Notes under the pieces: model-generated
Told to the model about the DNA's origin: nothing
The model's database searches: none
Seen by the model: the letters and a program-made list of their open reading frames with translations, nothing else
Program-made: the position numbers and the translations under genes
Shown: in pieces, positions 20,265 to 61,020 of the stretch
Position numbering within the stretch: position 1 is the stretch's first letter
How the letters are laid out: the number at the start of each line of letters is the position of its first letter
Assembly: GCA_000828835.1 (NCBI GenBank)
Contig: AP014633.1
Span: forward strand, 2,108,001 to 2,172,000
Direction: 5' to 3'
Origin: Thioploca ingrica
GTDB lineage: Bacteria > Pseudomonadota > Gammaproteobacteria > Beggiatoales > Beggiatoaceae
Length of the DNA stretch: 64,000 nt

Positions 20265-22958
20265 CTAAGCCACTTCTCGTCCCTTGGCTTCAATTAATAA
20301 CGCTTTCAATTCCGGAATGCACGAACCACAGCCAGTACCCGCTTTCAATGTTTCCCCAATTTGTTGGTAATTCACTAAACCATGTTGACGAATGGCGGCC
20401 AAAATCGTTTCGCGTCCAACTGCGTGGCAAGCGCAAATCACTTCACCACTCGCCGCTGGTGCAGAGTTGGGTTCACCGGTCAGCAAGCGAAGACGTTCTA
20501 CTGGGTCTAAGGTTTTACCAAACAGACTCATTAAGGGCTTACGTGAGGTGAGGCGAGCTTCAGCACCAATGAACAAACAAATATTCAGTTGTTCGTTGAC
20601 AATATTGGCACAGCGATAACGCCCTTGCGCCCGGTCTTGGAATTCTAACCAATCTTCAGTACCCAATTGCTGGCGTACCCAAAGTGACCAGTCAATCCGC
20701 CGCTGGCCGGCGAGTTCATACCGCCAACCAGCCACTTCTCTGACCTTAACCCAGTAGTCAGCTACCTCATGTAAGGTGATTTTACTAAACGGTTGGGCAG
20801 AAGTTTCTTGGTTTGAAGGGGCGTCTAACTCAGTACTGGAGAGTAAAAATCCATACCAGGCCGGTTGATAACGCTCCACTTTGACTGGCGTGTGTTTAAA
20901 CTCGGGTTGTCCCGAGATCGGATCCGTTACTGGCGGAATTAAGGCACCAACTCGGGCTTGACTGCTGTTTTGTCCATTCCAGTGCATGGGAATAAAAACG
21001 TTGCCGGGTTGTTGATGGTCAGAGATTTTTACTCGAACCACGACTTGCCCTAATTCACTGCTCACCGTGACTAAATCTCCCACTTGAATTCGCAATAAAC
21101 CAGCATCTTGGGGATGAATTTCCACGTAAGACTCACTAGTATGCGACAATAATCGCGCCGATTTGCCGGTACGAGTCATGGTATGCCATTGATCGCGAGT
21201 TCGGCCGGTATTGAGGATGAAGGGATAATCACGGTTGGGGAGATGAACTGGAGCGCGGGGCATAATAGCGATCAAATGGGCTTTGTTATCGGCAGTGAAG
21301 AATTGATAATCACTGAATAACCGTGTGGTACCCACTTCGGTAGGACTTTTCAGGGGCCATTGTACTGGCGATAACCGCTGATAATCCGCATCACTCAGAT
21401 TAGCTAACCCACTGATATCAAAATCCCGGGTGCCCTTATTCTGCTCACCAGATAATGCCGCATATTCGCGGAAAATGTCAGCACTGCTTTGATAAGCAAA
21501 CGCTGTTTCAGCAAATCCCAGCCGTCGAGCGACTTCGGTTATAATCCACCAGTCCGGTTTGGCGTCACCGGGGACTGGTAAAAAGGCTCTCTGCCGCGAA
21601 ATACGTCGCTCTGAGTTGGTTACAGTCCCCTCTTTTTCTCCCCAAGCTAAAGCGGGTAATAACACATGGGCAAATTCGGTGGTATCGGTGTAGCGCACAC
21701 AATCAGAAACGACGACTAATTCGCACATTCCTAGCGCTTGTTTGACTTTATCGGCATGAGGTAAGCTAACGACGGGATTAGTTGCCATAATCCAAATCGC
21801 TTTGATTTGACCAGCGACTATCGCATCATATAATTCGACTGCTTTTAAGCCCGGCTGTTGCGCAATGACTGGGGATTGCCAAAATTGTTGCACTAAAGCC
21901 AGATGTTCTGGTTTAAAATCGAGGTGCGCTACCAGTTGATTGGCCAATGCGCCGACTTCACGTCCACCCATCGCATTGGGTTGGCCGGTGACGGAAAACG
22001 GGGTAGCACCGGGTTTGCCAATTCGTCCCGTGGCGAGGTGACAGTTGATAATGCTATTGACTTTATCGGTACCGGCGCTGGATTGATTGACGCCTTGCGA
22101 GTACACTGTCACCGTTTTGTCGGTTTTAGCGAATAAGCGGTAAAACTCGGCAACATCCATTTCGGTTAAACCGCATAACTGCGCAATTTGTGGAATAGTA
22201 GCGGCTGATTCCCGTGCCGATTTTAAGGCCGCACCGGCACCGTGGGTGTGAGCCTCTAGAAATTCATAGTCCAGATGATCATGAGTGCGCAGAAAATTTA
22301 ATAAGCCATTAAATAACCAGACATCGGTGCCAGAACGAATCGGTAAATGTAAATCGGCTATGTCACTAGTCGCCGTATAACGGGGATCAATGACAACAAT
22401 TTTTAAGCGCGGCCGTTGTTCTTTGGCGGCTGCTAAGCGTTGATAGAGGACAGGATGACACCAAGCGAGGTTAGAACCAACGAGTACCACCAAATCGGCT
22501 AATTCTAAATCTTCATAGCAACCTGAGACCGTGTCGCTACCAAAGGCTCGTTTGTGTCCAGCCACGCTGGAGGCCATGCACAAGCGCGAATTGGTGTCGA
22601 TATTGGCCGTGCCGAGGAATCCTTTCATCAATTTATTGGCGACATAATAATCTTCAGTCAGTAATTGACCAGAAACATAAAATGCAATAGCATTTGCACC
22701 GTGTTCGCGAATAATTCGTTTGAATTCGTTAGCTACTTTGGTTAACGCTGTTTCCCAACTGACCCGTTGGTGATGTAATTCTGGATATAACAAGCGATCA
22801 TTTAAATCCAAAGTATCGGCGAGTGCAGCACCTTTAGAACACAACCGCCCGAAATTGGCCGGATGGGTTTTATCACCTTTAATGGTGACAGTGTGTTGAT
22901 TGACTTCGGCGGTTATTCCGCAGCCAACTCCGCAATAGGGGCATGTTGTTTGAACCAT
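20265..22958 (-). CDS. nasA: Assimilatory nitrate reductase catalytic subunit with C-terminal BFD-like domain
   Basis: 897 residues. The N-terminal 4Fe-4S motif is TTCPYCGVGCG (C6, C9, C13) with C40 in RLCSKGAAL. Bis-molybdopterin guanine dinucleotide oxidoreductase domains follow, with DTNSRLCMASSVAGHKRAFG and GQPNAMGGREVGALANQL typical of NasA/NarB. The C-terminal 60 residues (EVICACHAVGRETILAAI and TGCGSCIPELKALL) are a BFD-like 2Fe-2S domain. It reduces nitrate to nitrite in the cytoplasm. GGAG precedes the ATG. The gene is separated from nirBD by two secreted-protein genes, and the 7-bp repeat array at 22983-23199 lies immediately upstream, in or over its promoter. Confidence 0.95.
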   Translation of the reverse strand: MVQTTCPYCGVGCGITAEVNQHTVTIKGDKTHPANFGRLCSKGAALADTLDLNDRLLYPELHHQRVSWETALTKVANEFKRIIREHGANAIAFYVSGQLLTEDYYVANKLMKGFLGTANIDTNSRLCMASSVAGHKRAFGSDTVSGCYEDLELADLVVLVGSNLAWCHPVLYQRLAAAKEQRPRLKIVVIDPRYTATSDIADLHLPIRSGTDVWLFNGLLNFLRTHDHLDYEFLEAHTHGAGAALKSARESAATIPQIAQLCGLTEMDVAEFYRLFAKTDKTVTVYSQGVNQSSAGTDKVNSIINCHLATGRIGKPGATPFSVTGQPNAMGGREVGALANQLVAHLDFKPEHLALVQQFWQSPVIAQQPGLKAVELYDAIVAGQIKAIWIMATNPVVSLPHADKVKQALGMCELVVVSDCVRYTDTTEFAHVLLPALAWGEKEGTVTNSERRISRQRAFLPVPGDAKPDWWIITEVARRLGFAETAFAYQSSADIFREYAALSGEQNKGTRDFDISGLANLSDADYQRLSPVQWPLKSPTEVGTTRLFSDYQFFTADNKAHLIAIMPRAPVHLPNRDYPFILNTGRTRDQWHTMTRTGKSARLLSHTSESYVEIHPQDAGLLRIQVGDLVTVSSELGQVVVRVKISDHQQPGNVFIPMHWNGQNSSQARVGALIPPVTDPISGQPEFKHTPVKVERYQPAWYGFLLSSTELDAPSNQETSAQPFSKITLHEVADYWVKVREVAGWRYELAGQRRIDWSLWVRQQLGTEDWLEFQDRAQGRYRCANIVNEQLNICLFIGAEARLTSRKPLMSLFGKTLDPVERLRLLTGEPNSAPAASGEVICACHAVGRETILAAIRQHGLVNYQQIGETLKAGTGCGSCIPELKALLIEAKGREVA

Positions 22959-23317: not shown

Positions 23318-24307
23318 TCAATGAGAGACTAAAGAAAATGTTATTGGTGTCGGTTGCAATTGAGTAGCACTACTCACTGTAAAAGTACTGCCATTAAAAT
23401 TCATCGTTGCAGAATATAAAGATTCGACATGATTCCTCAGATCTAGAACTTTGAGCATTAGTAAGGTGAGAGTGGTACCAGCATAGCGAGCCGGTTGACT
23501 TGATCGGTTACCAGTACGGTTAAATGTTCTTAATGAAAAGGCATTATCACCATCAAAATCATCTAAGGTTGCTGTATAAGAAACTCCACTCACTATAACA
23601 ACAGGTATTTCAAGGAGCTTGGAAGGAGAAGTGTATCTTGGAATATTTCCATAATATGTTTGAACAGTCAAAATATCAATGTTACTCAAATTGCCATTCC
23701 CATTCCAATTAGGATTACAATAATTCATAACGGAATTATTATCCCAATCAGTAAATATGATATTACCCATAGTTCCTTGGGGTTCCAAGGTACAGGTAGT
23801 AGGCGTATCATGCCGATTTTGCTCATGAGCAAAACCTAAAGCATGACCAAATTCATGAACAGCCGTCCATCTTACACAAGAAGTTAGCCCATGATTGGTT
23901 ATACAATTAGGATCCCAAGAGACAAAAGTAAAATTCAATATCATACCACTCACTCTACCCCTTAATTCATTACCTAACCTTTCTGTATAAGGTCCAACAT
24001 CATTAACACCTATTCTTATTCCAGCAAATGTTCCGGTTGGACATTGACCCCAACCAGTAAAATCAACTTGAGAATTCGCTTCCCAAGTAGTAGTAACCGC
24101 ATTCTGAACTTCATTGCGTAAATTTGCATCGGTACTAAGACTCTCCCAACATACTGGGATATTGGTATTTGCCCAGATTACCGTATCTAATGGGAAAGAT
24201 CGAGAAGATAAATTAGATTGATTCCCATCAAATGGAGAAGCCAATAGTGATGATGTAAGCATTAAAATAGAGGAGGCAATTAATGGGTTAAATTTAGGTA
24301 ATATCAT
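23318..24307 (-). CDS. Secreted astacin/metzincin-type zinc metalloprotease
   Basis: 329 residues. A signal peptide (LIASSILMLTSSLLA) precedes the protease domain. The zinc site HEFGHALGFAHE has H151, E152, H155, H161 and a following E162, the HExxHxxGxxHE signature of astacin-like metzincins. The Met-turn is SVMNYC with M194. Several cysteines suggest disulphides in an exported protein. About 80 residues of beta-rich sequence follow the catalytic domain. It is not part of nitrogen metabolism, yet it lies with the next gene between nirD and nasA on the same strand. Substrate unknown. Confidence 0.88.
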   Translation of the reverse strand: MILPKFNPLIASSILMLTSSLLASPFDGNQSNLSSRSFPLDTVIWANTNIPVCWESLSTDANLRNEVQNAVTTTWEANSQVDFTGWGQCPTGTFAGIRIGVNDVGPYTERLGNELRGRVSGMILNFTFVSWDPNCITNHGLTSCVRWTAVHEFGHALGFAHEQNRHDTPTTCTLEPQGTMGNIIFTDWDNNSVMNYCNPNWNGNGNLSNIDILTVQTYYGNIPRYTSPSKLLEIPVVIVSGVSYTATLDDFDGDNAFSLRTFNRTGNRSSQPARYAGTTLTLLMLKVLDLRNHVESLYSATMNFNGSTFTVSSATQLQPTPITFSLVSH

Positions 24308-24707: not shown

Positions 24708-24749
24708 CCACTGACAACGGCAAAATTGTCACTGACAATTCAAATTAGG
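24708..24749. repeat. Short heptamer-phased repeat between nirD and the 102-aa gene
   Basis: Two 21-bp units beginning CCACTGACAA and TCACTGACAA, in the same 7-bp phase and word family as the array at 22983-23199. It overlaps the last codons of nirD and lies upstream of the 102-aa gene. Together the two arrays bracket the inserted secreted-protein genes. Confidence 0.65.
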
Positions 24750-25089
24750 TCAACTGCAATGCTTGCTTATACGTTTCCGGTATTCCCAATAACAGTTGAC
24801 CGGTCTCAATGACTTTAACAGGATAGCTGTGAGTACAACCTTTATCTGGCGCAAGCACTTGACCGTCAGTTAAATTGATTTGCCGATTGTGCAAAGGACA
24901 AGTGACCACCTTGCCATGAACAATTCCCTGCGATAACGGGCCACCCCGATGGGGACAACGATCATCTAAAGCCCATACTTCATCACCGGCAGTACGAAAT
25001 ATGGCGATATTGCCCCAGTCGGTTGTCACTACCCGCGCACCTAAGCGGGGAATATCCTGCAAGTGACCGATTTCAATCCACTGTATCAT
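24745..25089 (-). CDS. nirD: Nitrite reductase (NADH) small subunit, Rieske type
   Basis: 114 residues, normal length for NirD. The Rieske-type 2Fe-2S ligands are C45 and H47 in DDRCPHRGGPLSQG and C64 and H67 in VVTCPLHNRQINLTDGQ. It is the small subunit of the cytoplasmic assimilatory nitrite reductase. The start codon shares one base with the nirB stop (TAATG), so the two are translationally coupled. Confidence 0.95.
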   Translation of the reverse strand: MIQWIEIGHLQDIPRLGARVVTTDWGNIAIFRTAGDEVWALDDRCPHRGGPLSQGIVHGKVVTCPLHNRQINLTDGQVLAPDKGCTHSYPVKVIETGQLLLGIPETYKQALQLT

Positions 25090-27581
25090 TACGCAACCTC
25101 CTCTTCAGGTAAGGCAACTACTTTGATTTCACTGGTAGTTACTTGTTTAAGCGGTTTAAATTCATGGGCATCTAGGCCACCGAGCGCCCGCGCTATCCAC
25201 GGATCTTCTGCTTGGGCAAAGTGTTGGGATTCTAGAAAGCGCCGGAATAGGCTTTGTCGGTTGTCATTGTCAGCTACGAGTTGCTGTTTGACATAATCTA
25301 AGCCAACTCGTTCAATCCAAGGTGCAGTGCGTTCTAAATAGCGGGCATTTTCACGATAGAGTTGCATAAAAGCACCACAATATTCTAATACTTCCTCTGG
25401 CGTGGTGACTTTGCAAAGTAAATCGGTTACCCGCACTTTGATGCCGCCGTTGCCACCGACATGAATTTCCCAGCCAGCTTCAACGCCAATGACCCCAAAG
25501 TCTTTAATGGTGACTTCGGCACAATTACGTGGGCAACCGGAGACGGCCATTTTAAATTTATGCGGTGTCCAGGAGCCCCAAGTCATTTTTTCCAACTTGA
25601 CGCCCAGCTCCATTGCCGGTTGAGTGCCAAAGCGACACCATTCTGATCCAACACAGGTTTTTACGGTGCGCACCGCTTTGCCATAAGCATAGCCAGAGAC
25701 GAGACCAGCCTGATTTAAATCGGCCCAGACGGCGGGTAAATCCGTTTTTTTCACGCCTAATAAATCAATGCGTTGGCCTCCGGTCATTTTCACTGTCGGA
25801 ATATTGAATTTTTCTACGACATTAGCGATTGCCCGTAGTTCTTGGGGATTGGTTAAACCGCCCCACATCCGTGGTACTACTGAATAAGTCCCATCTTTTT
25901 GAATATTGGCGTGGACTCTTTCGTTGATAAAGCGGGATTGGTAATCATCTTTTACCTCAGCGGGGAAGTGTGCTAGCAGGTAATAATTCAGTGCTGGGCG
26001 ACACACTTGGCAGCCGTCCGGATTTTTCCAAGCGAGTTGGTCGAATATCTGCGCAATGCTGGTTAAATGCTGTTGTTTAATTGCCGTTTGGACTTCATCA
26101 TGGCTTAATTCAGTGCAGTGGCACATGGCTTTTTTCTTCGGGGCGGTATTATGGTAGTCTTTAACGGTAATCGCTAAAATTTGTTCTACCAAATGACTAC
26201 AAGAACCACAAGAAGCCGACGCTTTGGTATGCAAGCGCACTTGTTCTAAGGTCGTTAAACCTTCATTGGTAATAGTTTTGACAATCGTGCCCTTACAAAC
26301 ACCATTACAGCCGCAAATTTGGGTATCATCGCTCATCAGGGTAACTGCACTGGCTGCTGTACCACCGAGTGCCGATCCCAACGCGTAAGCTTGCCCAAAA
26401 AGGAGTTTGTCGCGGATATGACCAATATCAGCTTGTTCACGCATGAGTTGCAAGTACCACGCGCTATCTACAGTATCGCCGTACATTACCGCGCCTTTGA
26501 TATAATTGTTGTGAACGACTAATTTCTTGTAAATGCCTTGGGCGGGATCTTGGAAGATAATCTCTTCGGTTTTCCCATTGCCGAGGAAATCACCGGCAGA
26601 AAATAACTCTATCCCGGTGACTTTCAAGCGCGTCGACACGACCGAACCACTATAACGCGCAATTCCCATATCAGCTAAATGATTGGCACAGACTTTGGCT
26701 TGTTCGTAGAGCGGCGCGACTAGACCGTAGGCTTGGCCACGATGTTGGACACATTCTCCAACCGCATAAATACGCGGATCGTAGGTTTGCATGGTGTCAT
26801 TGACGATAATACCCCGCTCACAATAAATCCCAGCGGCTTTAGCCAAAGTGGTATTGGGACGAATTCCCACCGCCATGACTACAATATTCGCTGGAATTTC
26901 CAGCCCATCTTTGAAGCGTACTGCAGTAACCTGTTCCGTTCCAATAATTTCGGCGGTTTGTGCCTCCATAAGGAACTTTATGCCACGTTGTTCGAGCGAA
27001 GTTTTCAACAAAGTGGCCGCCGGTTTGTCTAATTGTCGCTCCATCAGTGTATCGAGTAGATGCACTACCGTGACATCCATGCCTTGTTTCATTAAACCAT
27101 TAGCCGCTTCTAAACCGAGTAAGCCACCACCAATGACGACAGCGTATTGACCGTGACGGCTAGCGGCTAACATGGCTTCCACATCCGTAATATCACGGAA
27201 GCTCACTACACCCGGGAGATTGTGACCAGGTATCGGGATAATAAAAGGATTAGAACCGGTCGCAATAAGTAAGCGATCATATTTGATGGTTACATCTTGA
27301 TCGCTGGTAATCTCGCGTTTAATCCGGTTAATTTGGGTAACCGTATGGCCAGTGTAGAGAGTGATGCCATTTTGATCGTACCATTCCTGACTATTTAAGA
27401 TAATATCATCGATATTTTTTTCACCCGCTAATACCGGTGATAACAAAATGCGGTTGTAATTTCCATACAGCTCGGTACCCAATACGGTAATGTCATATTT
27501 TTCTGGATCGAGTTTAAGTAATTCTTCCAGAGTGCGGACCCCAGCCATACCGTTGCCAATACAGACTAGTTTTTCTTTCAT
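25089..27581 (-). CDS. nirB: Nitrite reductase (NADH) large subunit
   Basis: 830 residues. The N-terminal FAD/NADH oxidoreductase domain (residues 1-310) shows VCIGNGMAGVRTLEEL, YAVVIGGGLLGLEAANGL and YAVGECVQHRG. BFD-like 2Fe-2S motifs follow (CGCNGVCKGTIV and SCGSCSHLVEQIL), then siroheme ferredoxin-nitrite reductase repeats. The siroheme-4Fe4S ligands are in TCVGSEWCRFGT and SGCPRNCAEVTIKD. It reduces nitrite to ammonium with NADH. AGGAG lies 8 nt before the ATG. A 224-bp palindromic element separates it from narK, so read-through from narK may be modulated there. Confidence 0.97.
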   Translation of the reverse strand: MKEKLVCIGNGMAGVRTLEELLKLDPEKYDITVLGTELYGNYNRILLSPVLAGEKNIDDIILNSQEWYDQNGITLYTGHTVTQINRIKREITSDQDVTIKYDRLLIATGSNPFIIPIPGHNLPGVVSFRDITDVEAMLAASRHGQYAVVIGGGLLGLEAANGLMKQGMDVTVVHLLDTLMERQLDKPAATLLKTSLEQRGIKFLMEAQTAEIIGTEQVTAVRFKDGLEIPANIVVMAVGIRPNTTLAKAAGIYCERGIIVNDTMQTYDPRIYAVGECVQHRGQAYGLVAPLYEQAKVCANHLADMGIARYSGSVVSTRLKVTGIELFSAGDFLGNGKTEEIIFQDPAQGIYKKLVVHNNYIKGAVMYGDTVDSAWYLQLMREQADIGHIRDKLLFGQAYALGSALGGTAASAVTLMSDDTQICGCNGVCKGTIVKTITNEGLTTLEQVRLHTKASASCGSCSHLVEQILAITVKDYHNTAPKKKAMCHCTELSHDEVQTAIKQQHLTSIAQIFDQLAWKNPDGCQVCRPALNYYLLAHFPAEVKDDYQSRFINERVHANIQKDGTYSVVPRMWGGLTNPQELRAIANVVEKFNIPTVKMTGGQRIDLLGVKKTDLPAVWADLNQAGLVSGYAYGKAVRTVKTCVGSEWCRFGTQPAMELGVKLEKMTWGSWTPHKFKMAVSGCPRNCAEVTIKDFGVIGVEAGWEIHVGGNGGIKVRVTDLLCKVTTPEEVLEYCGAFMQLYRENARYLERTAPWIERVGLDYVKQQLVADNDNRQSLFRRFLESQHFAQAEDPWIARALGGLDAHEFKPLKQVTTSEIKVVALPEEEVA

Positions 27582-27920: not shown

Positions 27921-29288
27921 TTAAACCTCAACCATAGCTGGTTTTAGCGTCCCCACGGCAGCCTCTCGTTCGGCTAAGGCCCGGTGCAAAGCGTCATTCT
28001 CTTCTTGAACTTTCTCCGGAGAGAAACGGATTGCCAAAATGAAGAAGGATGACAAGATCACCGCAATGCCGAGATAAAACAGTGCCTCTTGGGTAGTCAA
28101 TGCTTCCGAACGGAACAGGAAACCGGCCATCACGGCACCAACATTACCCCCAGCACCGACAATTCCCGCCACCGCACCTAAAGCCTTTTTATTGACAAAA
28201 GGTACAATTCCAAAACTGGCTCCGGTGGACATTTGCACAAATAAGCTAAAGATGAGTAAGGTGATAATGGCTAAGCTTAAACTGTTCATTTGGGAGAATA
28301 TCAATAACGCGATGCCTTCTAATAATAGGACGGCAAAGAAAAATTGGACTCTCCCCATAAAGCCATGATGTTTAGCGAATAGATCGGAGCAAACGCCGCC
28401 TAAAGTACGGGCAAAGATATTTATTAAACCGAATAAGCTGGCAATTAAACCTGCAGTAGTAACATCTAATTCAAATTTATCGTGAAAATACAGTGCCGCA
28501 ATGTTATCGATAGTGAGTTCCACGCCAAAACAAGTTGCATAGGTGAGAAATAGAATCCACACCCGATAATCTTCAACTGCGGCTATGAAAGAAGCTAAGG
28601 CACTATTTTCTCCAGCGGCTGCTTCTAACTCGCCGCGCGCACGTAATTCATCAAAATTACCATTGGGGGTGTCTTGAGTTAATAACCAATAAGCGATACC
28701 CACCGTGAATAATATAATACCCGGAATCACCATCGCAATCCGCCAGCCGAGAGATTGTTCGGCGACAAACATCATCACTACCGCCAACACCATCGGCATA
28801 ACCATCTGGGTAACACCACCACCAACGTTGCCCCAACCGGCAGTAGTCGCATTAGCGGTACCAACACAATTAGGCGCAAACATTAAGGAAGTGTGATATT
28901 GCGTAATCACGAAAGAAGCGCCAATCGCTCCAATCGCCAAACGAAATAACAAAAAGCTTTCATAACTATCCGCTAAACCGATACACATCACCGGAATAGA
29001 GCCTAAAATTAATAAGCCAGTATAAGTTTTCCGTGGCCCATACCGATGTGATAGTGGCCCAATTAATAACCGGACAATGATGGTGATAGCAACCGAGGCG
29101 ATAATGGTATTACCAATTTGAGTTTTGGTCAGTTGTAAGTCATCACGTACGATAGCCATCAGCGGTGCGATACCAAACCACCCAAAGAAGCAAGAGAAGA
29201 AAGCAAACCAAGTCACATGAAATGCCCGCATGGGTGGACTAGAAAAATCAAGTAAATTAATGCGCGTGGCTTTGTTTTTGATATCCAC
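27921..29288 (-). CDS. narK: Nitrate/nitrite MFS transporter
   Basis: About 455 residues with 12 membrane helices. FFSCFFGWFGIAPLMAIVRDDLQLTKTQIG, the loop RYGPRKTYTGLL and the glycine-rich TTAGWGNVGGGVTQM and VAGIVGAGGNVGAVMAGFLF are NarK/NasA-type nitrate signatures. A longer frame begins at TTG 29342, but GTG at 29288 is preferred. It has AGGAG 8 nt upstream and gives the usual start VDIKNKATRINLLDF. It imports nitrate for the assimilation genes around it. It is followed by the palindromic element and nirB and preceded by nasS. Confidence 0.93.
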   Translation of the reverse strand: MDIKNKATRINLLDFSSPPMRAFHVTWFAFFSCFFGWFGIAPLMAIVRDDLQLTKTQIGNTIIASVAITIIVRLLIGPLSHRYGPRKTYTGLLILGSIPVMCIGLADSYESFLLFRLAIGAIGASFVITQYHTSLMFAPNCVGTANATTAGWGNVGGGVTQMVMPMVLAVVMMFVAEQSLGWRIAMVIPGIILFTVGIAYWLLTQDTPNGNFDELRARGELEAAAGENSALASFIAAVEDYRVWILFLTYATCFGVELTIDNIAALYFHDKFELDVTTAGLIASLFGLINIFARTLGGVCSDLFAKHHGFMGRVQFFFAVLLLEGIALLIFSQMNSLSLAIITLLIFSLFVQMSTGASFGIVPFVNKKALGAVAGIVGAGGNVGAVMAGFLFRSEALTTQEALFYLGIAVILSSFFILAIRFSPEKVQEENDALHRALAEREAAVGTLKPAMVEV

Positions 29289-29398
29289 AGCGATATCTCC
29301 TATAATACTTAAGTTGCAATAAACCAACTCGTGATTGCTCAATCACGAAACTTTAATACGTCTGCTAAACGTATTAATCCTTTAAGGCGGATACCGGA

Positions 29399-30670
29399 TT
29401 AGTGGGTATTCGCCTTGTTTAAGTCAGCCAAGGTCACTAACCGACGCTGAATGCGAAAAGCAGCGATGTAATCCATTAACTGGTGCGGATCGTAGCTTTG
29501 GCCATCAAAAAATCGGTCAGCACCCATTGTCAGCGGTGATGTTGCCTCAGTGAATTCCCAAGCCGTCGCGTGGTTGCCTTCGATTTTGTTATCCAGCAGT
29601 GGACTAGCCATACTCAAGGCGTCTGCGGCTTGGCGATATAAATCCGGACGATACACTTGTTGCGCAACCGCATGAATATCTATTGCGGTTTCAATATCTC
29701 CCCACCGGAGCATTTGGCTTAAGAACCAGGCTGCTTGTGATCGCCAGGGAAAATTGGCCGCATAACGATAAAATACATTAAAATCCGGCAGATTTTGTGG
29801 TTCCTGGTCGGGGTGATATTGAAAGGTGCCTAACAGAGACATCTTTATCACCTCCAACGAAGCACCCACGTAGTGGGGTTGTGCTAACCATTGCGCCGCT
29901 GTCAACCGATTCTCCGGTTGGTCCAACCACTGACAAGCGGCTAACAGTGCTTTTAACACCGATTGATGAGTGTGTGGATAACTTTCTGCCCATTCCTGAT
30001 TCACACCGAACACTTTTTCTGGCATGTTGTTCCAGATTTCGTAATTCGTAATCAAAATGTGTCCAATACCTAGTTTTACTGCCTGGGCATTCCAGGGTTC
30101 TCCCACGCAATAACCGTGGATGTTACCGGCTTGTAACTGCGTCACCATTTTTGGCGGTGGCACCACGACTAAACGCACATCTTTATCGGGATGAATACCG
30201 GCGGCGGCCATCCAATAGCGTAGCGCGTAATTATGAGTAGAGACCGGAAACACCATCGCAAACGTCATGCAGTCTTTACCCGCTGCTTTATCCGCATCAA
30301 TCACTTGTTTTAATGCCCGCGCTGAAATTGGCCGGGTTTGCATCGCTACGGGGTCAGCGGCTAATAAGCGTTGATACAGTGCATTACTGACGGTAATGGC
30401 ATTTCCGTTCAAATCTAAATTAAATGCCGTGATAGTCGGTTTAGCGATACCATTAATGCCTAACGTGGTTGCTAATGGCATTGTGGCTAACATTTGGGCG
30501 CCATCTAGCTCACCAAATAACACCTTATCACGGATATTCGCCCATGAAGGTTCTCTGGATAAGGTAACATCCAGTCCCTGTTGCGCAAAAAAACCACCTT
30601 CTCTCGCTACCACCAATGGTGCACAATCGGTTAAGGGGATAAATCCAAAAGTTAACTGTGTTTTTTCCAT
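29399..30670 (-). CDS. nasS: Nitrate sensor NasS (NrtA/CmpA-like binding protein without signal peptide)
   Basis: About 423 residues. The fold is that of the nitrate/bicarbonate-binding proteins NrtA/CmpA: FGFIPLTDCAPLVVAREGGFFAQQGLDV, GELDGAQMLATMPLA and GYCVGEPWNAQAV. No signal peptide or lipobox is present and no nrtBCD genes are near, so it is a cytoplasmic sensor rather than a transport component. In known NasS-NasT systems NasS holds NasT inactive until nitrate or nitrite binds. The frame extends to TTG 30682, but ATG 30670 gives the natural start MEKTQLTFGFIP. It lies directly downstream of the leader RNA at 30735-30822 and nasT. Confidence 0.9.
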   Translation of the reverse strand: MEKTQLTFGFIPLTDCAPLVVAREGGFFAQQGLDVTLSREPSWANIRDKVLFGELDGAQMLATMPLATTLGINGIAKPTITAFNLDLNGNAITVSNALYQRLLAADPVAMQTRPISARALKQVIDADKAAGKDCMTFAMVFPVSTHNYALRYWMAAAGIHPDKDVRLVVVPPPKMVTQLQAGNIHGYCVGEPWNAQAVKLGIGHILITNYEIWNNMPEKVFGVNQEWAESYPHTHQSVLKALLAACQWLDQPENRLTAAQWLAQPHYVGASLEVIKMSLLGTFQYHPDQEPQNLPDFNVFYRYAANFPWRSQAAWFLSQMLRWGDIETAIDIHAVAQQVYRPDLYRQAADALSMASPLLDNKIEGNHATAWEFTEATSPLTMGADRFFDGQSYDPHQLMDYIAAFRIQRRLVTLADLNKANTH

Positions 30671-30734
30671 GGTTATACTCAACCGCTACGGTAAAATGGT
30701 GTTGCAATTCCTGGTTGCGACTTTTTTCAGGCAT

Positions 30735-30822
30735 AAAAAAAGGTGTCAATCCGCCCGCTGTAATAAAACACCGGTGGAAAGACACCTTTGTCTAGCCACT
30801 TAAACCATCATTAGTTCAAGTG
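30735..30822 (-). ncRNA. NasT-responsive (ANTAR) leader with alternative terminator, upstream of nasS
   Basis: On the minus strand P1 (30822-30797) is a 10-bp stem, arms CACTTGAACT and GGTTTAAGTG, with hexaloop AATGAT. P2 (core 30793-30780) has arms AGAC and GTCT with hexaloop AAAGGT. Both loops have A at position 1 and G at position 4, the ANTAR-recognised pattern. The P2 loop and arm overlap the 5-prime arm of a terminator: AAAGGTGTC (30789-30781) pairs with GACACCTTT (30747-30739), followed by seven Us (to 30735). ANTAR binding to P1-P2 would block the terminator and let transcription enter nasS-narK-nirBD. It starts 4 bp after the nasT stop. Confidence 0.82.
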
Positions 30823-30826
30823 AACA

Positions 30827-31405
30827 TTATTCTAACAACTGCGTGACAGCAATCACACTCTCTGCGACTTCTGCCAACCGTAAATTCCGATCCATTGCCA
30901 TCTTCCGCAAGGCGTGATAGGCACTGGCTTCATCAATGCCTTTTTGTTTCATCACAATGCCTTTGGCACGTTCAATCACTTTGCGCTCAGCCAGTTGGTT
31001 GCGCGTTTTATCTAATTCCGCTCGCATGGCTTGATATTCACGAAAGCGGGCAATCGCCACTTTCATGATAGGCTTCAAGCGTTGATGACTTAACCCGTCA
31101 ACGACATAAGCACTAACACCGGCTTTAATGGCGGCTTGAATGATAATATTGTCATCATTTTCCGCAAACATCACAATCGGTTTCGGGCTTTCGCGATTTA
31201 AGGTGCTCAGATACTCTAAAGTATCTCGATCGGGCGATTCTAAATCGATGAGGATCACGTCGACGGGTGTTTCTTGTACTCGCTTAAGGATATCCGCATC
31301 ATCATGTAATACCGCCACCACCTCATAATGAGCATCACGTAATGCTTGTTGCAAGAGTGCAGCCCGTCCACGATTGTCATCAATCAGCATGACCCTGAGT
31401 TTCAT
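30827..31405 (-). CDS. nasT: Nitrate-responsive antiterminator NasT (receiver-ANTAR)
   Basis: 192 residues. The N-terminal receiver-like domain (LRVMLIDDNRGRAALLQQAL, DVILIDLESPD) has the expected acidic residues. A helical linker (QAMRAELDKTRNQLAERKVIERAKGIVM) leads into the C-terminal ANTAR domain (KQKGIDEASAYHALRKMAMDRNLRLAEVAESVIA). ANTAR proteins bind paired hexaloop RNA hairpins and prevent termination, and such a leader lies 4 bp downstream, before nasS. The sigma-54 site at 31448-31462 is 43 bp upstream of the ATG. No clear ribosome-binding site is visible before the start. Confidence 0.95.
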   Translation of the reverse strand: MKLRVMLIDDNRGRAALLQQALRDAHYEVVAVLHDDADILKRVQETPVDVILIDLESPDRDTLEYLSTLNRESPKPIVMFAENDDNIIIQAAIKAGVSAYVVDGLSHQRLKPIMKVAIARFREYQAMRAELDKTRNQLAERKVIERAKGIVMKQKGIDEASAYHALRKMAMDRNLRLAEVAESVIAVTQLLE

Positions 31406-31447
31406 ATTTTATTTGGTGAGTGCGTCGTTACACTCGTCAACTATAAC

Positions 31448-31462
31448 GCAATTGATGTGCCA
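31448..31462 (-). promoter_or_regulatory. Sigma-54 promoter upstream of nasT
   Basis: The minus strand reads TGGCAC-ATCAA-TTGC, a full match to the -24/-12 consensus TGGCAC-N5-TTGC. It predicts transcription from about 31436, leaving a 30-nt 5-prime leader to the nasT ATG at 31405. Nitrogen control through NtrC is expected. No clear NtrC site was found. Confidence 0.82.
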
Positions 31463-31754
31463 TGGTTCGGCAAAAAAAAATGGCTTTAAAAATAGCTAAT
31501 TAACAAATATAACTTTCAATTAACAAGGAAATTAATCGACACGACTACACTGAAGGATACCGCTTAACTACCTCGTTTTGGCAAGGTAAATCGCTACTTA
31601 GGAAGGAATTGTCGCGAACGTGACAAAGTATTAGATTAGTATGATTTCTTACAAACTGACTGGGCATTATAACTTCCGGGCAAACAGGAACCACGTCAAT
31701 TCAAATGATTAGCTAATTCTTTCTAAACAAGAGTTGCTGTTTGAAATTCATTCC

Positions 31755-31783
31755 TTGACAATTAAATTAAATAAATCTATATT
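31755..31783 (+). promoter_or_regulatory. Sigma-70 consensus promoter, duplicated copy 1
   Basis: TTGACA at 31755-31760 (6/6 match), a 17-bp AT-rich spacer, and TATATT at 31778-31783 (5/6). Plus-strand orientation. An identical copy lies 134 bp downstream. The nearest downstream gene is the fibro-slime gene at 32362, leaving a long untranslated leader or an unrecognised RNA. Confidence 0.72.
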
Positions 31784-31888
31784 TTATATCAATTAATGAT
31801 ACATCATATTGTTACAATAGAGTGTTTGGTCTTTACAAATGATTAGCCAATTCTTTCTAAACAAGAGTCGCTGTTTGAAATTCATTCC

Positions 31889-31917
31889 TTGACAATTAAA
31901 TTAAATAAATCTATATT
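31889..31917 (+). promoter_or_regulatory. Sigma-70 consensus promoter, duplicated copy 2
   Basis: Same sequence as copy 1: TTGACA at 31889-31894, 17-bp spacer, TATATT at 31912-31917. Transcripts from it would cross about 440 bp of gene-free AT-rich DNA before the fibro-slime ATG at 32362. Confidence 0.7.
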
Positions 31918-31969
31918 TTATATCAATTAATGATATATCCTATTGTTACCATAGAATGTTTGGTCTTTA

Positions 31970-32361: not shown

Positions 32362-33579
32362 ATGAAACATAAACTACTAGCAATACCACTTTTGATAGCC
32401 AATGTCATGGTATATGCACACACGATTGAATTAAACGGGATAATCAGAGATTTTCCTAGTACCCATCCTGATTTTTATGGAATGGTTACCGGTTTGCAGA
32501 CGGGTTGTATTCAAAAGGTCATTGCCGACGGTGGAATTCCCATTGCCAGTGATAGTGTTAGCAATTGTGCCATATATCAATTAGAAGATTGGTATAGTGA
32601 CACTCATCCGACTGGCTTTGTTAAAACTTATACTCTCACCTTAGATAACGGACAAAATAAGCAAGGTGGTGTTTATCAATTTAAAGATAATAGTTTTTTC
32701 CCTTTTGACAACGAAATAAGTGATATTAAAAAAGGTAGCTACCGTAAGCATCATTTCAGCTTTGATGAAGGCAGAGACCATAATTATCAGTTCACCTTTG
32801 AAGCACGCTTTATGTTTGCTTACCAAGCCGGACAAACTTTAGCGGTTAATGGTAATGATGATATATGGGTTTTTATCAACAACCAACTTGTTATTGATTT
32901 AGGAGGTGTACATACCCCTGCCGGTGCTCAAGTCGCATTACAAAATTTAGCCTCAACACTCGGGTTAGTGGAAGGAAAAGTTTATCCTTTCGCCTTGTTC
33001 TTGGCACAGCGTCAGACGGTTATTTCTCCTCTCAGTCTTGGGTTGGGTAATATCATTCCTTCCTCGGCTGGAACCGAAGCTGGACTGACAGAGATGTTAA
33101 AAGTAAATGAGAAAACTTGTCTGTTGTTAGGCGTGGAATGTAATCGACTGAACGAGCGAGCAGTTAATATCTGGGCTAACGTCAAATTGCCAAGAGATAA
33201 GGGTATTGATGAGTTATTAAGCGATCGGGTTATTACCTACCAAAATTTTGTTGATACCCTTCGTGACAATAATACTCTCGTTCAAGTCTTACACAACAAT
33301 GTTAAGGAAACATGTAGCTATATGGCTCAAAATCCTAGAGTAGCCCAGTCCTCAAATTCCCAACAACAAGCCATTGATTTTTGTGAAAGTGGTCTTTACG
33401 GCAGAATTGAACAAATGCTCTGGGATGGCTGGTTTGAGCGTTCACCAACCACCGCTGAAGTCAGTCAAATGTTACCTTTCCTTAAAGCTAACTTTGATCT
33501 TGGTCATTTTATAAAGACGCAAGCTGGTAATACACCGCCCGTATGTCCGTGGGACTGCATATGTGGACACTGCTACTAA
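32362..33579 (+). CDS. Fibro-slime domain (PA14-like) secreted protein
   Basis: 405 residues. A signal peptide (LLAIPLLIANVMVYA) precedes a fibro-slime domain of about 200 residues: GIIRDFPSTHPDFYG, DNSFFPFDNE, FTFEARFMFAYQAGQTLAVNGNDDIWVFINNQLVIDLGGVHTP, LGLVEGKVYPFALFLAQRQ. The domain belongs to the PA14-like carbohydrate-binding group found in surface proteins of slime-forming and fibrolytic bacteria. The C-terminal 180 residues are unrecognised, helical and end cysteine-rich (CPWDCICGHC). A role in sheath or slime adhesion is plausible for a gliding filament former. The neighbouring orphan TpsA protein is convergent. Confidence 0.83.
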   Translation: MKHKLLAIPLLIANVMVYAHTIELNGIIRDFPSTHPDFYGMVTGLQTGCIQKVIADGGIPIASDSVSNCAIYQLEDWYSDTHPTGFVKTYTLTLDNGQNKQGGVYQFKDNSFFPFDNEISDIKKGSYRKHHFSFDEGRDHNYQFTFEARFMFAYQAGQTLAVNGNDDIWVFINNQLVIDLGGVHTPAGAQVALQNLASTLGLVEGKVYPFALFLAQRQTVISPLSLGLGNIIPSSAGTEAGLTEMLKVNEKTCLLLGVECNRLNERAVNIWANVKLPRDKGIDELLSDRVITYQNFVDTLRDNNTLVQVLHNNVKETCSYMAQNPRVAQSSNSQQQAIDFCESGLYGRIEQMLWDGWFERSPTTAEVSQMLPFLKANFDLGHFIKTQAGNTPPVCPWDCICGHCY

Positions 33580-61005: not shown

Positions 61006-61020
61006 TGGCACATCGCTTGC
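61006..61020 (+). promoter_or_regulatory. Sigma-54 promoter of nifHDK
   Basis: TGGCAC-ATCGC-TTGC, a full -24/-12 match, 61 bp before the nifH ATG. It predicts transcription from about 61032. Confidence 0.92.

Follow-up and report, generated by a model that had tools for sequence, protein, structure and literature searches.

A probable NasT-responsive antitermination leader between nasT and a nasS-like gene in Thioploca ingrica

The nitrate-assimilation operon of Thioploca ingrica is probably headed by an ANTAR antitermination leader that responds to NasT, and the first gene behind this leader would encode the cytosolic nitrate sensor and antagonist of NasT itself. The leader lies between nasT and a nasS-like gene in a stretch of 64,000 nucleotides of contig AP014633.1 (the window; all coordinates count from its first letter). 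The original prediction had placed it at 30735-30822, and our analysis confirms it there, on the minus strand. The mechanism of this leader is ordinary; the order of the genes around it is unusual.

ANTAR targets are recognized by two hairpins of at least 3 bp each, with hexaloops that carry A at position 1 and G at position 4 and with proper spacing between the loops; the A1/G4 pair and its spacing are defined in PMC3369931. Two successive A1/G4 hexaloop hairpins, the second overlapping the 5′ arm of an intrinsic terminator that ends in seven Us, had been predicted 4 bp past nasT, and all of these elements are present at the positions given for them. The first hairpin, P1 (30796..30823, minus strand), is seen in the fold, the motif scan and the covariation, and its arms (30823-30813 and 30806-30796) form 11 pairs, including G-U, around the loop AAUGAU (30812-30807). 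Without the outer U-G pair, P1 has 10 bp and begins 4 nt after the nasT stop codon (30829-30827); with that pair included, the distance is 3 nt. The antiterminator hairpin P2 (30780..30793, minus strand; fold and motif scan) consists of four pairs between AGAC (30793-30790) and GUCU (30783-30780), closing the loop AAAGGU (30789-30784), and the A1 of P1 lies 23 nt from the A1 of P2. The terminator (30735..30789, minus strand; fold and motif scan) pairs AAAGGUGUC (30789-30781) with GACACCUUU (30747-30739) in a stem of 9 bp and ends in the U-run 30741-30735. Its 5′ arm, AAAGGUGUC, is common to P2 and the terminator; the terminator stem takes over the loop and the 3′ arm of P2, and the two structures are mutually exclusive. 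The minus-strand leader folds with -43.7 kcal/mol (z -6.72), a value equalled by 0/200 shuffles. P2 by itself folds weakly (z -0.94; equalled by 39/200 shuffles), as would be expected of a hairpin that is stabilized by a protein.

Upstream of the leader, nasT (30827..31405, minus strand) encodes a protein of 192 aa with a receiver (PF00072) and an ANTAR domain (PF03861), the only ANTAR match found in a genome that consists of a single contig of 4,810,005 bases. A sigma54-type -24/-12 promoter, TGGCAC-N5-TTGC (31448..31462, minus strand), begins 57 nt upstream of the ATG of nasT; exact matches to it number two in the 64-kb window, against 0.10 expected, and the other stands at 61006-61020 on the plus strand. 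The nearest named relative among the loci compared, the MAG Thioploca sp. SL_4_0 (locus G001/L107; nasT 95% and nasS 88% identical), carries the same promoter sequence 58 nt before nasT. An NtrC-site pattern gave two distant matches at three mismatches against a chance mean of 5.38, and we claim no NtrC site. Further upstream, 31695-31962 is a tandem direct repeat of 2 x 134 nt (copies 93% identical), each copy with a plus-strand TTGACA-17-TATATT promoter-like site, before a gene at 32362.

Downstream, all on the minus strand, follow the nasS-like gene for a nitrate-binding protein (29399..30670, 423 aa, no signal peptide, ATG at 30670; PF13379 and trees), narK for a nitrate/nitrite transporter (27921..29342, start uncertain; TIGR00886 above cut-off), nirB (25089..27581; TIGR02374 above cut-off), nirD (24745..25089; TIGR02378 above cut-off) and a nasA-type assimilatory nitrate reductase gene (20265..22958) with molybdopterin and BFD domains, whose matches to Fdh-alpha and NasC fall short of the cut-offs. 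The leader scan that includes the terminator found no second leader near the nasA-type gene. An astacin-like metalloprotease gene (23318-24307) lies between nirD and nasA; the corresponding ORF is absent from the shorter nirD-nasA gap of the sister genome L107.

The gene after the leader had been called nasS, and this identification is favoured by the absence of a signal peptide and of an NrtB ortholog, by its standing as the sole full-length relative in the genome and by its place in the trees. By function it is probably a NasS, of uncertain descent. PMC3795266 describes NasS as NrtA-like, having the nitrate residues but no signal sequence. The window protein matches PF13379 (NMT1_2) at E 3.1e-94, and its best PDB matches are C-terminal domains of NrtC/CmpC, followed by NrtA. 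Its ATG at 30670, preceded by an in-frame stop six codons upstream, coincides with the start of the conserved core, a few residues past the presumed signal cleavage site of exported relatives, and the sister gene starts with TTG, a Leu codon at the position of the window's ATG, with GGAG before it. Two other relatives in the genome are partial, at 32-33%, and no NrtB ortholog was found there (best match 24%). In a tree of 87 rows, the window protein, L032 and L111 group with 26 rows of mostly signal-less NasS (support 96/89), beside the exported family type, and the placement on the NasS side keeps a support of 91/87 in a tree of 59 rows, from which 28 long-branched and near-identical rows had been removed. 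Conserved columns such as W43, H146, P171/P172 and K219, candidate residues of the nitrate pocket, are kept in the window protein and are each present in 74/74 rows once divergent rows are dropped.

An unlikely alternative is that the switch is a genuine NasT target and its first gene a decayed nrtA, which has lost its signal and its ABC partners and encodes no antagonist of NasT; NasT would then not be regulated by nitrate, or would be regulated by something else. The sister genome and G015 aside, the nearest proteins by distance are Tat-exported and of NrtA type. At the same locus, four family relatives (G006, G010, G025 and G028) carry a twin-arginine signal on the gene, whose product is 58-62% identical to the window protein, and behind the exported gene stand two genes of nrtB and nrtC size (Pfam was applied to those of G028, and the NrtB match is 86% in G010); in the window, narK takes the place of these two genes. 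An AU test does not reject a clade that unites the exported type and the window protein (p-AU 0.17, or 0.32 without L111). Against decay, however, stand the 88% identity to the sister genome, the same start place and the conserved columns, which point to purifying selection, and the fact that the window gene is the only candidate sensor of its type found in the genome. In the genomes of the four relatives, a second relative of the exported protein was not found.

Comparison of sequences further suggests that NasS may have arisen from exported proteins more than once. Signal-less NasS-like proteins adjoining nasT fall inside the Ralstonia-type exported clade in the tree (L046, L051 and L057) or, by BLAST only, have their best match in it (L169-L173, L187 and L188); in L171, the NasS-like gene precedes nasT. 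Behind nasT of L111 (G015) stands a signal-less relative that retains a remnant of the signal end, and no nrtBC adjoins.

A further alternative is that the hairpins are an ordinary terminator of nasT with a chance likeness to ANTAR targets, behind which the operon would have its own promoter. Judged by the terminator alone, a constitutive terminator past nasT would look alike; this explanation is nevertheless very improbable, since the hexaloop pair, its spacing and the overlapping terminator were found together in 0/3000 dinucleotide shuffles of the intergenic region, loop positions 1, 2 and 4 (A, A and G) of both loops are invariant in 26 aligned rows, among which the scan itself demanded A1 and G4, and the architecture recurs in the sister genome and, within the family, in four more loci from three other genera. 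Over both strands of the window, the motif with terminator matches twice, the other match (40501) lying antisense inside a long plus-strand ORF. Rfam gave no match at gathering score across the whole window and, at E up to 10 across 30500-31900, eight matches, none over the leader on the minus strand. A 12-base P2 pattern was tried as a probe in five genomes and dropped, as it gave little information.

The original prediction proposed covariation of P1, P2 and the terminator in relatives as a check, and it is seen both in the 26-row set of P1 and P2 and in six leaders of the family. The 26 rows are 28 scan matches minus L040:4313 and L067:3131. They show changes on both sides in 10/13 pairs, a count that is partly circular because the scan demands stems and A1/G4; 90.8% of cells are paired, against 24-46% in controls slid by 1-3 columns. 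The four P2 pairs are kept in 26/26 rows, which were selected for such stems, and the innermost P1 pair is U-G in the window versus C-G in 24/26 rows. The A1-A1 spacing is 22-23 nt in 21/26 rows and 20-24 nt in the other five, within a scan range of 19-25; in other loci it is 28-34 nt. The six family leaders keep 91.7% of the cells of P1 and the terminator, with seven pairs changed on both sides, and the 9-bp terminator stem by itself keeps 96.3% in these six sequences, with three pairs so changed.

Among loci chosen by nasT, the same device occurs in family relatives and far outside the family. An ANTAR protein is encoded in 8/42 family genomes searched, and in six of these eight (the window, L107, L108, L109, L110 and L112) the leader separates nasT from the following NasS/NrtA-type gene. 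In G015 (L111), no leader was found between nasT and its relative gene, and in G030 (L113), nasT and nasS adjoin, with one leader before nasA and another after nasS. The double leader of G030, before nasA-nasT-nasS and after nasS, means that nasT itself may be controlled by NasT there. The leader model R1 matches the window genome once (150 of 793 first-look candidates scored), and G010, G025 and G030 have weaker extra matches (E 0.04-0.8). For a model built from 19 sequences outside the family, the window leader is the best match in the window but a weak one, with 10.4 bits and an E of 1.1 in 180 kb; in a target of 501 bases the model finds it at E 0.003; at genome scale it did not recover the leader among the 150 of 1016 candidates scored. 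This model being too weak genome-wide, independent support comes from anatomy and synteny. The initial description as an ANTAR leader is supported by anatomy, covariation, the position kept in relatives and the sole ANTAR protein of the genome. Control of nasS translation or RNA stability instead of termination, as proposed for ANTAR RNAs without a terminator (PMC3369931), is likewise very improbable, since a strong U7 terminator overlaps P2 and nasS starts 65 nt beyond the last U.

Several known systems resemble the device. NasT of Paracoccus binds the nasA leader RNA (PMC3795266), and nasTS/nasABGHC of Paracoccus denitrificans likewise combine NasT, a signal-less NasS and a hairpin leader before nitrate genes (PMC3795266, PMC5424462); nasS, however, precedes the leader there and is cotranscribed with nasT, whereas in the window it follows the leader. 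The Klebsiella nasF leader, which precedes a nitrate operon, similarly has A1/G4 loops and an overlapping terminator (PMC3369936), but its regulator NasR senses nitrate with its own NIT domain, while the NasT of the window needs a separate sensor. The eut leaders of Enterococcus faecalis have the same dual hairpin with A1/G4 and an A1-A1 distance of 24 nt (A29, A53) versus 23 (PMC3369931); unlike the window's NasT, EutV is activated by phosphorylation and serves other genes. In Pseudomonas aeruginosa, the antagonist gene amiC likewise belongs to the controlled operon amiEBCRS, behind the amiE leader of AmiR/AmiC (PMC3795266, PMC3369936), although amiR also lies behind that leader and the ligand differs, while in the window nasT is upstream and only the antagonist would be leader-controlled. 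By gene order, and by analogy with amiEBCRS, NasT would thus control its own antagonist.

The extent of the transcript, the binding of NasT to the leader and of NasS to NasT, and the response to nitrate are, we infer, as follows. Transcription would probably start at the sigma54-type promoter under nitrogen limitation and run through nasT, reaching the leader 3-4 nt on. This gap is too short for a leader promoter, unless the promoter lay within nasT, and one transcript therefore probably carries both nasT and the switch; in several other taxa, a sigma54-type site stands directly before the leader (e.g. 29-30 nt upstream in L082, L087 and L089). By default, the 9-bp terminator would form and the transcript would comprise nasT only. 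Free NasT dimers on the loops of P1 and P2 would let P2 tie up AAAGGUGUC, which would disable the terminator and allow expression of nasS-narK-nirBD. In the absence of nitrate, NasS would build up and bind NasT, closing the loop; with nitrate, NasS would release NasT and read-through would be full. For NasS:NasT capacities between 1.5 and 10, a toy steady-state model puts uninduced read-through at 0.09-0.65 if nasS follows the leader and at no more than 0.0044 if nasS precedes it. With nasS after the leader, the model thus predicts that uninduced read-through should settle near the ratio of NasT to NasS synthesis, not near zero. An antagonist placed behind the switch of its target would make a simple inducer circuit self-limiting, with the testable prediction that the uninduced level reflects the synthesis ratio and not leak.

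How unusual this order is can be seen from 75 loci, each represented by its best nasT (L114 and L041 are one and the same place, and a few loci have a second nasT copy outside this table). A signal-less gene of NasS type follows nasT within 170 nt in 27 of them, L044 being scored ambiguously, and among these 27 two have the leader between both genes (the window and L032, which belong to the same genus) and 12 have it behind the second gene; in the other 13 no leader was detected. The first such gene is exported in 41 loci, with the leader between nasT and the exported gene in 31. Five loci showed no NasS/NrtA-type gene within the stretch compared. Thus, the place of the leader at the operon head is usual, and the unusual part is a cytosolic sensor as head gene. 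Two further loci, L039 and L049, have a signal-less relative deeper in the leader-controlled operon, 3.7-4.2 kb after nasT, in the order nasT, leader, MFS transporter, PP2C-protein kinase fusion, signal-less NasS-like gene and nirB; L049 has a globin gene besides. No report of nasS after the leader, or of an internal nrtA start, was found in the open-licence literature, which is weak evidence.

The loci with an exported head gene raise a question more interesting than the leader itself, and the answer offered here is partly supported. Tentatively, and at somewhat less than even chances, some bacteria with nasT and a leader and without nasS may use an internal ribosome-binding site and start within nrtA, making a signal-less cytosolic sensor besides the full-length exported protein; the window and, separately, G015 would be end states that keep the sensor only. 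If true, this would explain nasT without a nasS gene, by one gene with two start codons that yields a transporter part and a cytosolic sensor. As such a gene would stand behind NasT's own leader, self-limitation would then be the common state. A second relative was absent at E 1e-12 from 14/15 genomes checked that have nasT and an exported relative, the exception being L038, whose NrtC carries a fused NasS-like domain (59% to the window protein). The long NrtC-like ATPases of L061, L051 and L057 (577-595 aa) have no NasS-like match.

The criterion for an internal start was at least 5 nt of Shine-Dalgarno at proper spacing before an in-frame ATG or GTG inside the signal. Among loci without an adjoining nasS, 20/33 exported genes pass, versus a sum of about 2.8 for the synonymous-shuffle probabilities over the 33; the idea came from L108, L109 and L112, all among the 33, and these three are no test of it. 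For 20 of the 33, a genome-wide search found no second relative, and 11 of these 20 pass. The criterion is passed by 0/16 exported NrtA genes from loci with a separate nasS, by 0/7 behind nasR, which needs no NasS, and by 1/12 with no regulator seen in the flank. Candidates with a conserved internal start in the Tat signal are L070-L072, L074-L085, L087-L090, L096, L108-L110 and L112.

Within these candidates, internal Shine-Dalgarno and start are found in 11/11 genes of a Ralstonia type and in 9/9 of a Moraxellaceae type. In the former, which are close kin and have other invariant codons in the same stretch, Gly at -24 is GGA in 11/11 versus 0/309 other Gly codons (not counting Gly -23), and ten genes have GTG as the start and one has ATG, a change of Val to Met that keeps the start. 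In the latter, which are related rows (so that Fisher values are not probabilities) and include L071 and L096 from MAGs labelled otherwise, Gly at -19 is GGA in 9/9 versus 9/300 elsewhere and Met at -15 is kept in 9/9, whereas the remaining eight four-fold sites of that stretch at which the amino acid is conserved vary. The leader was found in 11/11 loci of the Ralstonia type; in the Moraxellaceae type it is clear (E up to 0.01) in 2/9 and weak in six more. The four family relatives have an internal ATG at -17 in 4/4, with GGA before it, and the G015 gene starts at Met -21 and keeps the remnant VYAG. A rival reading, that the internal Shine-Dalgarno is a slowdown signal for export, leaves the kept start codon unexplained.

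As a general feature of nrtA, the internal start was rejected: it is clade-bound. With the criterion unchanged, the best 30 loci from 104 matching genomes and eight stretches of 394 matching plasmid records gave 2/11 passes among nasT-linked exported genes, both in genomes already used, hence 0/9 by locus, and truly new loci are fewer than nine, as the signal sequences of L176 and L157 are those of L040 and L047. The criterion scan found no internal start in L042, L055 and L093 (all three Methylophilales) or in L064, L040 and L050, nor in five NasS-less loci (L061, L066, L092, L116 and L117). When TTG starts are admitted, 2/9 of the new loci pass (L157 and L159). At codon level, GGA-GGC/T and TTG are kept in all five of L041, L045, L047, L157 and L159, though two of these genes, L047 and L157, look alike.
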